64,000 nt of DNA from an uncultured Pseudophaeobacter sp. (GTDB lineage: Bacteria > Pseudomonadota > Alphaproteobacteria > Rhodobacterales > Rhodobacteraceae). The notes beneath the pieces were generated by a model. That model was not told the origin of the DNA and made no database searches. It was given only the letters and a program-made list of their open reading frames with translations. A program made the position numbers and the translations under genes. The stretch lies in NCBI GenBank assembly GCA_905479575.1, contig CAJQNB010000005.1, positions 1 to 64,000 of the forward strand. Direction: 5' to 3'. Of the stretch, positions 4,200 through 17,281 are shown piece by piece. Each line of letters starts with the position of its first letter. The stretch's first letter is position 1.

Positions 4200-6893
4200 T
4201 TAAAACGCCCCCTCCGGGGAGATTTTCCGCGCAAATGGCAGGGAAATTCTGAAACTGCCTCCCTTTTGCCCCGGCAGGTAGGAAATGTCGCCCTCAAGGC
4301 GCTGCATGATCTCACGGCAAATCGCCAACCCAAGCCCGGCTCCCCCGGCCCGTTCGGGGCTAACCCGCGAGAATTTCTCAAAAATTAGCTGTTGGTGGTC
4401 AGCGGGAACGCCGCTGCCATTGTCGGTGAAATCTATCCAGACCTCCCCTAAGCTGCGGGTCACCCGAATGGTCATTTCCGCCGGTTGCCCGTCGCAATAC
4501 TTCTGGGCATTGGCAATCAGGTTGATAAAGACCTGCGCCAATCGATCCAGGTCAGAGGAAATCCGTATTTGCTCTGATTTTGGGTCGCGGTGCACCTGAA
4601 TGGGGTGATCCGAACCCGCCAAAGCAGTGGAAATCGCATGGTCCATCACCTCGCTCAGAGTCCCCGTCGACATATTCAAACTCACCTGTCCGCTTTCCAG
4701 CACGCTCAGGTCCAACAAATCATTCAACAGCCGGGTCAGACGCAGCGCCTCGTCATGGATGATGGTGGCATACCGGGCTTTGTCCGCCAAAGGCATATCG
4801 CCCTCATCGCGCAGGATCTCGGAGAAGGCCCGGATTGAGGTCATCGGCGTGCGCAGCTCATGGCTCACCTGGCTGAGAAAGGCATCTTTTTGCTGGGAAA
4901 TCTGGGTCAGCTTTTCATTGGAGACCCGCAATTGTCGTGCGGTGCGCGACAGTTCCGCGGATTGCTCTTCCAGTTGATTGGAGTACTCCAGCATCTGCGC
5001 CGTTTCATCCGCCACCGCCAGCAGATCCTGCACCGACACCGAGGAGCCGCCGACGATTTGGCCAATCATCGCATGGGCCGCGGCCGCCCCGATCGAGGCC
5101 CCCAGTTCGCGCTCCAGCCGCTCCAGGAAGGCCGGTGTGGGCTCTGGCAGGGTGCCGCGCCCGCCTTGCCTGACAAGTTCACGTTGAAAAAACGCCTGCG
5201 CCTCGGTCGCGCCTAAGATGCGTTGCGACATCACCATCAGATCTTCGCTTTGCGCCACAGAGCCAGTCCAGCCGCGTGGCCCCGAGGAATGTTCAAACAC
5301 ATTGACAAACTGCGCGCCCTGCAAACGCTCAATAGGGCTTGGAAAGGTCATCAGCGAGACCAGACAAAACACCACCGCATTGAGGCTCATCGACCAGAGC
5401 ACCGCATGCACCGTGGAATCCAGCCCTTCGATACCAAACAGGGCCTGTGGGCGCAGCCAAGAGAGGCCAAACAGCCCTTCGGCCAGGATATGATCCGGCA
5501 ACAAGCCCCCCCCCAAGGCCGGCAGCAACATGGTATAGACCCAGATGGCAAAGCCCACGGACAGGCCACAAAGGGCGCCGGTACGGGTGGCACCGCGCCA
5601 GAACAGCCCGCCAACAAGTGGCGGCAACATCTGGGAAATACCGGCAAACGAGATCAACCCCACGGCGGCCAGCGCGGCGCCACCGCCGGAGAGCTTGTAA
5701 TAGAAATACCCCAGGCCAAGAATGACAGCGATGGAGATCCGCCGGGCAAACAGCACCACATTGCGCACGTCTCCGGACACCGAAGCCCCCTCGCCGCCTT
5801 GCAGATGCAGCCAGATCGGCATCACCATATGGTTCGACACCATGGTCGACAGCGCCATCGCCGCCACGATCACCATCGATGTAGCCGAGGAAAATCCGCC
5901 CAGGAAAGACAGCATCGCCAGCCCCTGTTGCCCCTGTGACAGAGGCAAGGCCAGGACAAACAGATCCGGGTTTGATCCCGGCGGCAGCAGCTCCAGGCCG
6001 ATGGCCGCAATCGGCACCACAAACATCGAAATCAGAAACAGATAAAGCGGAAAGGCCCAGGCCGCGACCCGCAGATGGCGCTCGTCCTCGTTCTCGACGA
6101 CCATGACCTGAAACATTCGCGGCAGGCAGACAAAGGCCGCAGCGGACAGGAAGGTAATGGTTGCCCAGCGGCCACCATCCACCCGCCAATCACCAATTTG
6201 CGAGGCATCAATCCGCGCCAGTGTATCTGAGATCCCATCGGACAGACCCCAGACCACAAAGATACCAACCGCCAGCAGCGCCACCAGTTTGACCACCGCC
6301 TCCAGCGCCACCGCCGTGACCACGCCGTGGTGGCGTTCATTCGCGTTCAGGTTGCGGGTTCCAAACAGAATGGCAAAGACCGCCAGCCCCGCAGTCACCC
6401 AGAACACCGTCGTGGTCTCGTGGTAGCTGCGCAGCGGATCGGCCTCGGCAAAAGTTGAAAAAGACAGGGTAATAGACTGTAGTTGCAGGGAAATATACGG
6501 GGTAATGCCAATCACCGCCAGGACCGTGACACCGATGGCCAGAGCATTGGACTTGCCATAGCGTGCCGACAACAGATCCGCGATCGAAGTCACCCGCTGG
6601 CTGCGCCCAACCCGGACCAGTTTACGCAGCCCCCACCACCAGCCAACCATGACCAGAGTCGGCCCCAGATAGATGGTCAGAAATTCCAGCCCTGAACGCG
6701 CCGCGTATCCGACCGCCCCGTAAAATGTCCAGGCTGTACAGTAAATTGACAGGGACAGTGTATAAATCAGCGGCGAGCGTATCCAGGCAGAGCTTTGGCC
6801 GCGCGCGGCGCGGCGGTCCGCAACAAAGGCAACAAAGAACAACAACGCCACATAGGCCAGACAGACCAGCGCCAGAACATTAAGCGAGGCCAT
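4200..6893 (-). CDS. Sodium:solute symporter-type sensor histidine kinase (CbrA-like)
   Basis: A hybrid membrane kinase of 897 aa. Residues 1 to about 500 are a solute:sodium symporter module with some 13 transmembrane segments. A linker and coiled coil follow, then HisKA with phospho-acceptor His678 (SHELRTP), and an HATPase with N box (NLIANAQKY), G1 (DNGSGVP) and G2 (GGAGLGLAI). The start at 6893 overlaps the upstream stop as TGATG and gives the hydrophobic start expected; a longer frame to 7076 is spurious. The layout matches CbrA-type kinases, which couple transport or sensing of a carbon/nitrogen source to transcription. The cognate regulator is likely the single-domain receiver encoded at 7311-7709. 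The ligand cannot be read from sequence. Confidence 0.9.
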   Translation of the reverse strand: MASLNVLALVCLAYVALLFFVAFVADRRAARGQSSAWIRSPLIYTLSLSIYCTAWTFYGAVGYAARSGLEFLTIYLGPTLVMVGWWWGLRKLVRVGRSQRVTSIADLLSARYGKSNALAIGVTVLAVIGITPYISLQLQSITLSFSTFAEADPLRSYHETTTVFWVTAGLAVFAILFGTRNLNANERHHGVVTAVALEAVVKLVALLAVGIFVVWGLSDGISDTLARIDASQIGDWRVDGGRWATITFLSAAAFVCLPRMFQVMVVENEDERHLRVAAWAFPLYLFLISMFVVPIAAIGLELLPPGSNPDLFVLALPLSQGQQGLAMLSFLGGFSSATSMVIVAAMALSTMVSNHMVMPIWLHLQGGEGASVSGDVRNVVLFARRISIAVILGLGYFYYKLSGGGAALAAVGLISFAGISQMLPPLVGGLFWRGATRTGALCGLSVGFAIWVYTMLLPALGGGLLPDHILAEGLFGLSWLRPQALFGIEGLDSTVHAVLWSMSLNAVVFCLVSLMTFPSPIERLQGAQFVNVFEHSSGPRGWTGSVAQSEDLMVMSQRILGATEAQAFFQRELVRQGGRGTLPEPTPAFLERLERELGASIGAAAAHAMIGQIVGGSSVSVQDLLAVADETAQMLEYSNQLEEQSAELSRTARQLRVSNEKLTQISQQKDAFLSQVSHELRTPMTSIRAFSEILRDEGDMPLADKARYATIIHDEALRLTRLLNDLLDLSVLESGQVSLNMSTGTLSEVMDHAISTALAGSDHPIQVHRDPKSEQIRISSDLDRLAQVFINLIANAQKYCDGQPAEMTIRVTRSLGEVWIDFTDNGSGVPADHQQLIFEKFSRVSPERAGGAGLGLAICREIMQRLEGDISYLPGQKGGSFRISLPFARKISPEGAF

Positions 6894-13933: not shown

Positions 13934-14689
13934 ATGAACGTCAAACCCGACTTTTCCAAGAACGCCAATGCGGCAACCACCGCGCCGGCCTTTCTGTCGG
14001 TCTGGGACATGCATGCCTATTATGGCGAAAGCTATATCGTGCAGGGCATCAACTTTAACGTCCACGAGGGCGAAATCCTGGCACTGCTGGGCCGCAACGG
14101 CGCGGGCAAGACCTCGACCCTGCGCTCCATCGCCCGTACCGGCTCGCCGATGGTGACCCAGGGGGAGATCTGGCTGGATCACCAGCCGCTGCACCTGATG
14201 GAAAGCCACGAGGCCGCAGCCGCCGGTCTGGGCCTGGTGCCCGAAGATCGCCGCATCATTGCCGGCCTCACCGTCGAGGAAAACCTGCAACTGGCGCAGA
14301 TTGCCCCGCCCATCGGCTGGTCGATCGAACGGCTTTATGATCTGTTCCCGCGTCTGGGCGAACGTCGCAAGCAAGAGGGCGTGACCCTGTCAGGCGGCGA
14401 ACAGCAAATGCTGGCCATCGCCCGTGCCCTGGCGCGGGACATCAAGGTGCTGCTGCTGGATGAACCCTATGAAGGCCTGGCACCGGTGATTGTTGATGAG
14501 ATCGAAAAGACCCTCATCCACGTCAAGGAACAGGGCATGACCACCATTCTGGTGGAACAAAACGCTGTGCGGGCGCTGGAGCTGGCGGATCGTGCGGTGA
14601 TCCTGGACACTGGTGGCATCGTCTTTGACGGCACCGCCGCTGAGGTTCTGGAAAACGCCGAGCTGCGGGCGGAATATCTGGCGATCTGA
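13934..14689 (+). CDS. ABC transporter ATP-binding protein, LivF family
   Basis: A 251-aa ATPase with Walker A GRNGAGKTS, signature LSGGEQQMLAIARAL and Walker B LLLDEPYEGLAP. An N-terminal extension of about 20 residues precedes the fold. It is the last gene of the importer operon, 77 bases after the LivG-type gene, with AAAGGACAAG as ribosome site, and is followed by a strong terminator. Confidence 0.9.
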   Translation: MNVKPDFSKNANAATTAPAFLSVWDMHAYYGESYIVQGINFNVHEGEILALLGRNGAGKTSTLRSIARTGSPMVTQGEIWLDHQPLHLMESHEAAAAGLGLVPEDRRIIAGLTVEENLQLAQIAPPIGWSIERLYDLFPRLGERRKQEGVTLSGGEQQMLAIARALARDIKVLLLDEPYEGLAPVIVDEIEKTLIHVKEQGMTTILVEQNAVRALELADRAVILDTGGIVFDGTAAEVLENAELRAEYLAI

Positions 14690-14741
14690 TTTCCGGGCCA
14701 CTCCCCGTTGCTCAGGCCAAAAGCCCAGGCAATACCACTCT

Positions 14742-14768
14742 GACCGGCCCCCCTCTGGGGGGCCGGTC
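14742..14768 (+). terminator. Terminator of the ABC importer operon
   Basis: A perfect 12-bp GC-rich stem (14742-14753 with 14757-14768), 3-base loop, followed by TTCCTTTTGTT. A classic Rho-independent terminator. Confidence 0.9.
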
Positions 14769-14813
14769 TTTCCTTTTGTTGCTTCACAGGAAATATACAG
14801 GCGGCACAAAATT

Positions 14814-14838
14814 AAAGGCGGCACAGGGTACCGCCTTT
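14814..14838 (-). terminator. Terminator of the cyanovirin-like gene
   Basis: An 8-bp stem (14814-14821 with 14831-14838) followed on the minus strand by an AT-rich stretch containing TTTT. It lies 26 bases past the stop codon of the CVNH gene. Confidence 0.65.
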
Positions 14839-14863
14839 ATTCTGGTGGACTGTGTAGAGAGCG

Positions 14864-15247
14864 TTAGTAGCTCAGAACCCCATCTTGATTGGAGATGCCA
14901 TCAATTTCGATCGAGGTTTCAATGAATTCGCCATTTGGGGCACGGCAGTTTGCCGTCAGCGTCACCGATCTGAGGTCACTCCACAACCCGATGTTGCCAC
15001 AGCTTTTCTGGAACGAACTGGGAGCCCCATCCTGGGTTAAAATACCATTCTGATTGGATATTCCACGGATGACAATGCTCGTCTGGTTGGCGTCGCCATT
15101 GCTGGTCAGACAGGTTGCGGTAATACCCGCGTCATTGCCCAGATAGGAAAATTGGAAATTTGAACAGGTGTTCTGAAATGAGCTCCCAGCCAAAGCGGCA
15201 GTGCTCAAGATCGCAGCAGGAACGCAAAGCGAAAGAAGTAGCTTCAT
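14864..15247 (-). CDS. Secreted cyanovirin-N homology (CVNH) lectin-like protein
   Basis: A 127-aa protein with a Sec signal peptide (1-20, ending TAALA) and a mature part made of two tandem CVNH repeats. Each repeat has the layout SSFQ-x2-C ... C ... TSI-x4-GISNQ-G-x-L. The mature protein has four cysteines (28, 46, 83, 101), one pair per repeat, as in cyanovirin-N; spacing within each pair is 18 instead of 14-15. The ATG at 15247 with GAGGGG upstream is chosen; the frame extends further but without a signal peptide. Cyanovirins bind high-mannose glycans. The bacterial role is unknown; surface carbohydrate binding, adhesion or defence are possible. It lies next to a repeat element, outside any operon. 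Confidence 0.88.
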   Translation of the reverse strand: MKLLLSLCVPAAILSTAALAGSSFQNTCSNFQFSYLGNDAGITATCLTSNGDANQTSIVIRGISNQNGILTQDGAPSSFQKSCGNIGLWSDLRSVTLTANCRAPNGEFIETSIEIDGISNQDGVLSY

Positions 15248-15353
15248 AATAATACCCCTCAAGGTGAAAATGGAAAGATCCCAACAACCATACCGAGACA
15301 TTAGACAACTTTGGCATATTTGCAAGGCAGGTCCCCCGGCTGAGCGAAGCTGC

Positions 15354-15623
15354 CCTGGGCTCTGGACCCATTAATCTTACGTGCTCAGCGGCTATTTCGC
15401 GAGATTTCAGGGGCTTGGGGTGCGCAGCCAATAGTGGTTCTATTTGCAAGTGATCCGAGACATTGAAATGAAGTGAAATAGCCGCCCTTCGGGTTTGACG
15501 GATTTTCCCGCTGGAGGCGTCACATCTGATTGAAATAGAACCACTATTCCTGCGCAGATGCTCCTAACCAGCGAAAAAATCTGTCAAACTGAGCACGTAA
15601 GATTAATGGGTCCTGAGCCTAGG
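15354..15623. repeat. Nested inverted-repeat element of about 270 bp, MITE-like
   Basis: The ends are a 35-bp inverted repeat with 33 matches (15354-15388 and 15589-15623), of which the inner 25 bp are perfect. Inside are two more inverted pairs: an 11-bp pair (15388-15398 with 15475-15485, GCGGCTATTTC) and a 16-bp pair (15430-15445 with 15533-15548, AATAGTGGTTCTATTT). No credible gene is inside. This fits a non-autonomous mobile element or a structured repeat family. No clear target-site duplication was seen. It fills most of the gap between the CVNH gene and the acyl-CoA synthetase gene. Confidence 0.75.
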
Positions 15624-15647
15624 TGCCGATGGTCTTTAGCAAGGGCT

Positions 15648-17147
15648 TTACAGCAATCGCGCCCGCAATTCGGTTTTCAACACCTTGCCGTAGTTGTTCT
15701 TGGGCAGCTCGGGAACAAAGACATAGGCCTTGGGGCATTTGAAGCGGGCAATCTGGTCGCGGCACAGGGCGTCCAGATCGGCCTCCGCCACCTCTCCCAC
15801 CACAAAGGCCACCACCTCTTCGCCCCAATCCGCATGGGGCCGCCCCACAACAGAGACCTCCTGCACCTGGGGGTGGGTCAGCAGCACCTCCTCGACCTCG
15901 CGCGGATAGATGTTTGAGCCACCGGAAATGATCAGATCCTTGGAGCGGTCCTGCAAAGTCAGATAGCCGGCCGTGTCCATAACTCCCATATCGCCGGTCA
16001 TCAGCCAGCCGTCCTTTAGGGTCTGCGCAGTGGCCTGTGGGTTGTTCCAATACCCCGGCATCACCGCATCGCCGCGCACCATGATTTCGCCCAGCTCTCC
16101 CGCTGGCAGAGGCTGCCCCTCTGGGGTGCCAATACGCAACTCGACACCGCTTTGGGCGCGCCCTACCCCTGCAAGGCGCAATTTCCAGTCGGGATGGCTG
16201 CGGTCGCTGACCTCGGCCCGTTTCAGCGCGGTAATGCCCATCGGACATTCGCCCTGACCGTAGATCTGAATAAAGATCGGGCCAAAATGCGCCTCGGCCT
16301 CGATGATGTCGGCCAGATACATTGGCCCCCCAGCATAGACGACGCTGCGCAGCCCGGTGCCACTGCGCCCCTGCGCCTTGGCCACTGCGGTCATCCGCGT
16401 CACCATGGTGGGGGCCGCGAAGATCTGCACCCGGCCAAAATGTTCCGCCAGATCAAAGATCTCTGCCTCGTCAAAGCCGCCTGACACCGGGCAGACATGG
16501 GCCGCGCCAACCAGAACATGCAGCATATTATACAGCCCTGCGCCGTGGCTCATCGGGGCCGCATAAAGGATCTGATCAGCACCCGTGGCCGCATCCACAT
16601 CGGCAAAATAGCTCAGCGAGACCGCCACCAGCATGCGATGGGTGATCTGCACCCCCTTGGGCTGCCCGGTGGTGCCAGAGGTATAAAACAGCCAGGCCAG
16701 ATCCTGTGGATGCCGCTGCACGGGCTCCGCAACGGGTGCACAGCCCATAGCCTGCCGATAGCGATCAGCCGCGATCGACACCACCGGTGTTTCAACCCCG
16801 ACTTCCGCCAGGGCGCTGTCCAGCCCCGCAGAGACAATAACCATCCGCGCCCCGGAATCCTGCAGAATATACTGCGCCTCACGGCCGTGCAGCTTGGCGT
16901 TGATGGGCACCGCCGCAGCGCCGGCATACCAAATGCCATAAAGCGAGATCAGATAGTCCGGGCAGTTCTTCATAAACAGGGCGATCCGATCGCCGGGCTG
17001 CACCCCCTGCGCCAACAACCACCCCGCAAGTGCGGCGGCTTTGTGATGGAATCTCTGATAGTTGGCCTCCAGATCCTGCCCCAGGTAAAGCGCCGGACGG
17101 TCGCCCTCTGCCTGCGCCTGCCGATACAGCCATTGCGCGATATTCAT
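15648..17147 (-). CDS. Acyl-CoA synthetase (AMP-forming, ANL superfamily)
   Basis: A 499-aa adenylating enzyme with the AMP-binding P-loop YTSGTTGQPKG, the YGQGE motif, TGD, the hinge region DRSKDLIISGG and the catalytic lysine near the C-terminus (PKNNYGKVLK). It activates a carboxylic acid to its CoA thioester in the cytoplasm. AGGAGGAG before the ATG at 17147 fixes the start. It is divergent from the PAS-LuxR gene and convergent with the ABC importer, and probably activates the acid the importer brings in. Chain-length preference cannot be read from sequence. Confidence 0.9.
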   Translation of the reverse strand: MNIAQWLYRQAQAEGDRPALYLGQDLEANYQRFHHKAAALAGWLLAQGVQPGDRIALFMKNCPDYLISLYGIWYAGAAAVPINAKLHGREAQYILQDSGARMVIVSAGLDSALAEVGVETPVVSIAADRYRQAMGCAPVAEPVQRHPQDLAWLFYTSGTTGQPKGVQITHRMLVAVSLSYFADVDAATGADQILYAAPMSHGAGLYNMLHVLVGAAHVCPVSGGFDEAEIFDLAEHFGRVQIFAAPTMVTRMTAVAKAQGRSGTGLRSVVYAGGPMYLADIIEAEAHFGPIFIQIYGQGECPMGITALKRAEVSDRSHPDWKLRLAGVGRAQSGVELRIGTPEGQPLPAGELGEIMVRGDAVMPGYWNNPQATAQTLKDGWLMTGDMGVMDTAGYLTLQDRSKDLIISGGSNIYPREVEEVLLTHPQVQEVSVVGRPHADWGEEVVAFVVGEVAEADLDALCRDQIARFKCPKAYVFVPELPKNNYGKVLKTELRARLL

Positions 17148-17281
17148 CGCCTGATCTCCTCCTGAATGGTCGGCTCTTTTGCTCCCTCCCCGGAGCATTG
17201 CGACAAAGAACCTGTCAAAAACACCCTTCCATGGTGCAGCTTCCCCTTCAATTCCGCAAAAATACCCGGTTAATAGGAGGC

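Follow-up and report, generated by a model that had tools for sequence, protein, structure and literature searches.

Cyanovirin-N (CV-N) binds sugars and is known for its ability to block viruses. The lectins of its family (CVNH) have been studied mainly as antivirals, and the benefit that they bring to the organisms that own them is little understood. According to published work, CVNH proteins are known in cyanobacteria, fungi and ferns, in agreement with an earlier note on this DNA. By the account in PMC8091458, six of the seven key hydrogen bonds of CV-N come from backbone atoms, and the contacts named in PMC11112747 include E41, S52, N53, E56 and R76. Microvirin, a further cyanobacterial member, is termed a monovalent lectin in the title of one reference. 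No report of a roseobacter CVNH protein was found among the open-licence PMC literature (titles and abstract openings among the matches listed in a partly loose search). The family is already known and covered by an NCBI naming model; the roseobacter lectin described here adds a member to it and is no new kind of system.

The gene lies in a stretch of 64,000 nt (the window) from a roseobacter, an attribution made in the earlier note that fits the nearest named relatives, Phaeobacter and Pseudophaeobacter. The ORF (15247..14864, minus strand) starts with ATG and encodes 127 aa followed by a stop codon. The protein matched the CVNH profile of Pfam (PF08881) over residues 24–125 (profile positions 1–101 of 102, E 4.5e-10, 40.6 bits against a cut-off of 24.5) and the whole NCBIfam model NF052356, ‘mannose-binding lectin’, over residues 22–127. 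The margin for the latter was just 7 bits (87.3 against 80), and the mannose binding in its name is taken as a suggestion from sequence. A weak Pfam match to the TonB plug was dismissed (18.3 bits, below the cut-off of 23.9).

Alignment to CV-N revealed one complete CVNH domain of two tandem repeats, with C28, C46, C83 and C101 aligned with C8, C22, C58 and C73 of CV-N. The predicted fold matched the solved cyanovirins when the structure models were compared; two of the five models were confident (80.4 and 79.0) and the other three scored 61.2, 59.5 and 50.9. Both the family assignment of the earlier note and its two repeats with four cysteines were therefore borne out. Identity to the cyanobacterial lectins microvirin and Cyt-CVNH was ~28 to 35% in the alignments. 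The roseobacter lectin differs from CV-N of Nostoc ellipsosporum by a signal peptide, which had also been claimed earlier and was supported by eye: MKLLLSLCVPAAILSTAALA, followed by G, has a basic start, a hydrophobic core and an ALA–G junction, presumably a Sec signal. In the predicted structure, pLDDT was below 50 in residues 1–21 alone.

Table 1. Features in and around the lectin gene (positions in the window)
Feature	Position	Strand	Basis or remark
livF-like ABC transporter ATPase, left flank, syntenic marker	13934..14689	+	
Terminator-like hairpin directly 3' of the lectin gene	14813..14839	-	12 pairs, tail ATTTTGTG
CVNH lectin gene	14864..15247	-	ORF list, Pfam and NCBIfam profile matches, predicted fold
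Predicted Sec signal peptide, residues 1–20, cleavage after ALA	15188..15247	-	By eye
Lectin leader region (lectin side of the repeat) with conserved G-rich, ribosome-binding-site-like stretch	15248..15339	-	Alignment of five carriers
About 273 nt missing at the same site in same-species G010; contains the MITE-like element; ends approximate	15346..15618	.	Comparison with carriers
AMP-binding acyl-CoA synthetase, right flank, syntenic marker	15648..17198	-	Codirectional with the lectin gene

The livF-like gene on the left is part of a branched-chain amino-acid ABC transporter, and the synthetase on the right is followed by a LuxR/PAS regulator and then a biotin-carrier gene (Table 1). The earlier note had placed the lectin gene outside any operon. 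This needs qualifying, as the gene runs in the same direction as the synthetase upstream, so transcriptional linkage is possible; the gap between them is 127 nt in the same-species genome G010 and 400 nt in the window, the difference being due to a repeat. Three terminator-like sites were found in the lectin region, compared with a mean of 1.3 after shuffling, and the segment downstream of the gene (14795–14860) gave a fold z of −5.27. Nothing exceeded the Rfam gathering scores over 14600–15720. The earlier note had suggested that the lectin could serve adhesion to algae or defence; no family of the PADLOC-DB defence models was matched at E up to 1.

Five of 12 genomes of the genus carried the lectin gene, all at the junction of livF and the acyl-CoA synthetase gene: the window genome (G000), G010, whose lectin protein is identical to that of the window, G006, G009 and G011. 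Pairwise dN/dS of the lectin ranged from 0 to 0.14 (ten comparisons), and the lectin is under purifying selection. It is a genuine CVNH protein, maintained by selection and probably exported. The seven genomes that do without the gene indicate that its function is dispensable. Their junctions have spacers of 109–172 nt in four cases (125 nt in G001) and of 1.6–1.9 kb with other ORFs in three. Chance-level matches (E 0.16 and 0.42) were all that a search for lectin remnants returned in two of the seven, and the other five gave none at E up to 1. By eye, a small secreted PepSY-like ORF and a cytochrome-b561-like ORF replace the lectin at the junctions of G004, G005 and G008 (L086, L087 and L090), which marks the junction as a variable site.

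In trees of the flanking genes, no clade of carriers excluded all non-carriers; G001 fell with or next to G000 and G010, and G004 paired with G011. Loss or exchange has therefore occurred. Between G006 and G011, DNA identity was 93.0% for the lectin, 79.7% for the synthetase and 88.4% for the liv genes (livF only in G011). The higher identity of the lectin than of its flanks hints at its exchange between these species.

The repeat upstream of the leader is MITE-like (15354–15623), with terminal inverted repeats of 35 nt (15354–15388 and 15589–15623, 94% complementary) that enclose 200 nt including a second, perfect 16 nt inverted pair, AATAGTGGTTCTATTT. Both G000 and G010 contain close copies at other places (91–97% identical, some partial), and related ones occur in 11 records of roseobacter plasmids, including those of Phaeobacter and Pseudosulfitobacter. 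The earlier note had correctly recognized a repeat element adjoining the gene; the element is dispersed and no part of the lectin. The note had further taken it as a sign of acquisition, and a recent horizontal transfer of the lectin brought by the repeat would suit both the adjacency and the patchy distribution in the family and class. However, the gene occupies the same site in all five carriers, with flanks that share 81 to 99% DNA identity with the window, whereas the repeat is absent from that site in the other four and had no match anywhere in the genomes of G006, G009 and G011. Recent acquisition of this kind is contradicted within the genus and we consider it highly improbable; mobile origin via the repeat was rejected on account of the four carriers without it at the site. 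Given this absence, the lectin gene is probably older than the adjacent repeat.

The window retains GGGCAGCTTCGCTCAG (minus strand), which resembles the sequence of carrier G009 and is missing in G010. G010 may therefore have deleted the element between short repeats, and to state that the repeat inserted in the window strain only goes too far, given the G009-like stretch.

Beyond the genus, CVNH is rare. In the family, 4 of the 394 genomes sampled had a match, one of which (G349) has a longer, multi-repeat protein. In the class, 9 of 385 genomes matched at E 0.001 or less (8 above the cut-off; four of the nine match about half of the model), and in the phylum 5 of 398 (2 above the cut-off); the three samples overlap, and the window genome is part of each. 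With the NCBIfam mannose-binding-lectin model, matches at E 0.001 or less came from 10 of the 385 class genomes, two of them above the cut-off. No CVNH match occurred in 14 control genomes. These counts agree with the patchy occurrence described earlier. A pattern scan of genome contigs returned seven loci: three of the genus, two of Rhizobiales and two of Caulobacter.

The Rhizobiales, Sinorhizobium and Caulobacter proteins (L012–L015 and L092) were 46 to 50% identical to the lectin over the mature domain and have the FQNTCSN and N-x-[ND]-G signatures in common with it. Their genomic sites differ from that of the lectin: by eye, ffh adjoins the gene in Caulobacter and a trigger-factor gene in Rhizobiales, and the Sinorhizobium plasmid relative is near transposases. 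In two other Rhodobacteraceae genera the neighbour is leuD (by eye); in L094 (~4761–5069) and L095 (4161–4472) the CVNH gene adjoins it on different sides and on the strand opposite the leu genes (gene names by eye). No partner gene common to different genera was seen. Other architectures were also observed. What appears by eye to be a beta/gamma-crystallin-type domain follows a half-length CVNH match in L076 and L079, from two genomes of a single further alphaproteobacterial genus, and two more genomes of that genus have similar half-length matches. The alphaproteobacterial genome G666 encodes two full CVNH genes (L069 and L077), both scoring over the cut-off of the NCBIfam mannose-binding-lectin model.

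In a tree built from a selection of 14 sequences, a split with 96% support set CV-N, one Nostoc protein and the divergent L069 apart from the remaining alphaproteobacterial proteins. G010 was omitted as identical to the window. Also omitted were the hits of G349 (L008), G407, G417, G549, G641, G568, G664, the f63 group and the second G666 copy, which inspection by eye showed to be more distant, incomplete or differently arranged. A tblastn search with the lectin against 50,697 phage records gave nothing at E up to 0.001, and the 21 pattern matches in viral contigs included no gene for a relative. Among 72,556 plasmid records, two had a match (Sinorhizobium alkalisoli and Nostoc). The patchy distribution beyond the genus leaves room for an older horizontal origin, perhaps a transfer before the carrier species parted. 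The CVNH gene resembles an independent module that was mobile on a long evolutionary time scale, though not recently here.

For the sugar pocket, 12 domain-B residues of CV-N given in PMC8091458 were compared by alignment (CV-N numbering), and domain-A positions such as E23 were paired by a correspondence inferred from repeat symmetry. In this high-affinity mannose pocket three residues are identical (N42, S52 and F54), four conservatively exchanged (D44 to N, N53 to S, T57 to S and K74 to R) and five replaced non-conservatively (E41 to S, V43 to Q, E56 to K, R76 to P and Q78 to G). In domain A, E23 of CV-N is L in the lectin. R at 74, G at 78, L at 23 and S, G or A at 41 recur in 11 of 12 aligned alphaproteobacterial sequences, the twelfth, L069, agreeing with them at position 78 only. 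All 12 sequences have N, F and S at positions 42, 54 and 57, respectively. The other pocket positions are variable, with R76 kept in carrier G009 and both E56 and D44 in Sinorhizobium.

With E41, E56, R76, Q78 and E23 replaced, an affinity for Man-alpha-1,2-Man like that of CV-N cannot be taken for granted. Sugar binding is still possible because the key hydrogen bonds of CV-N are mostly made by the backbone, and binding of mannose is plausible from the sequence. Loss of sugar binding by the CVNH fold, with another role taken on instead, would account for the few identical residues (3 of 12) and the five non-conservative changes, but it is unlikely in view of those backbone contacts, the three positions constant in all alphaproteobacterial sequences and the score above the cut-off of a model named for mannose binding. 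The pocket suggests instead that the protein binds glycans, perhaps with a specificity unlike that of CV-N.

Whose glycan would be bound is a separate matter. The lectin might bind the bacterium's own exopolysaccharide, LPS or periplasmic glucans and serve in biofilm or envelope organization rather than on a foreign host. A Sec-type signal with no anchor visible by eye, relatives in other alphaproteobacterial orders (Caulobacter and Rhizobiales) and pocket residues shifted away from CV-N are consistent with this. Against it, no polysaccharide gene was present among the seven neighbours scanned in the window and none was recognized by eye beside the CVNH relatives, although a missing linkage is weak evidence. 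We regard this explanation as doubtful, yet well worth keeping in mind.

On balance we favour, with some reserve, an exported two-repeat CVNH lectin that acts alone, probably binds a glycan that contains mannose, or one akin to it, on a marine host or alga for attachment or recognition, and is inherited at one site. The protein would be exported via the Sec pathway and fold in the periplasm, where two disulfides (C28–C46 and C83–C101) would form, and would then be kept there or released. Presumably monomeric, it appears to act without a partner. Oligosaccharides would most likely be bound in two shallow pockets, largely via backbone atoms as in CV-N, and the target would probably be exposed on the surface of the host or alga, so that binding could give attachment or recognition. 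In part of the genus the gene would have been inherited at a single chromosomal site, with loss or exchange in some members.

A conserved single-gene lectin that bears a signal peptide and occurs in marine roseobacters amenable to culture, one carrier apparently coming from an algal culture, would offer a simple system for the role of CVNH proteins in their owners, and its variant pocket provides extra sequence diversity for studies of lectin specificity. The most interesting possibility, which we put forward tentatively and hold to be somewhat less probable than not, is that exported CVNH lectins of alphaproteobacteria form a branch of their own, with re-tuned pockets and a changed glycan preference, which may recognize a glycan other than terminal Man-alpha-1,2-Man and serve as a free-standing recognition module of host-associated bacteria.
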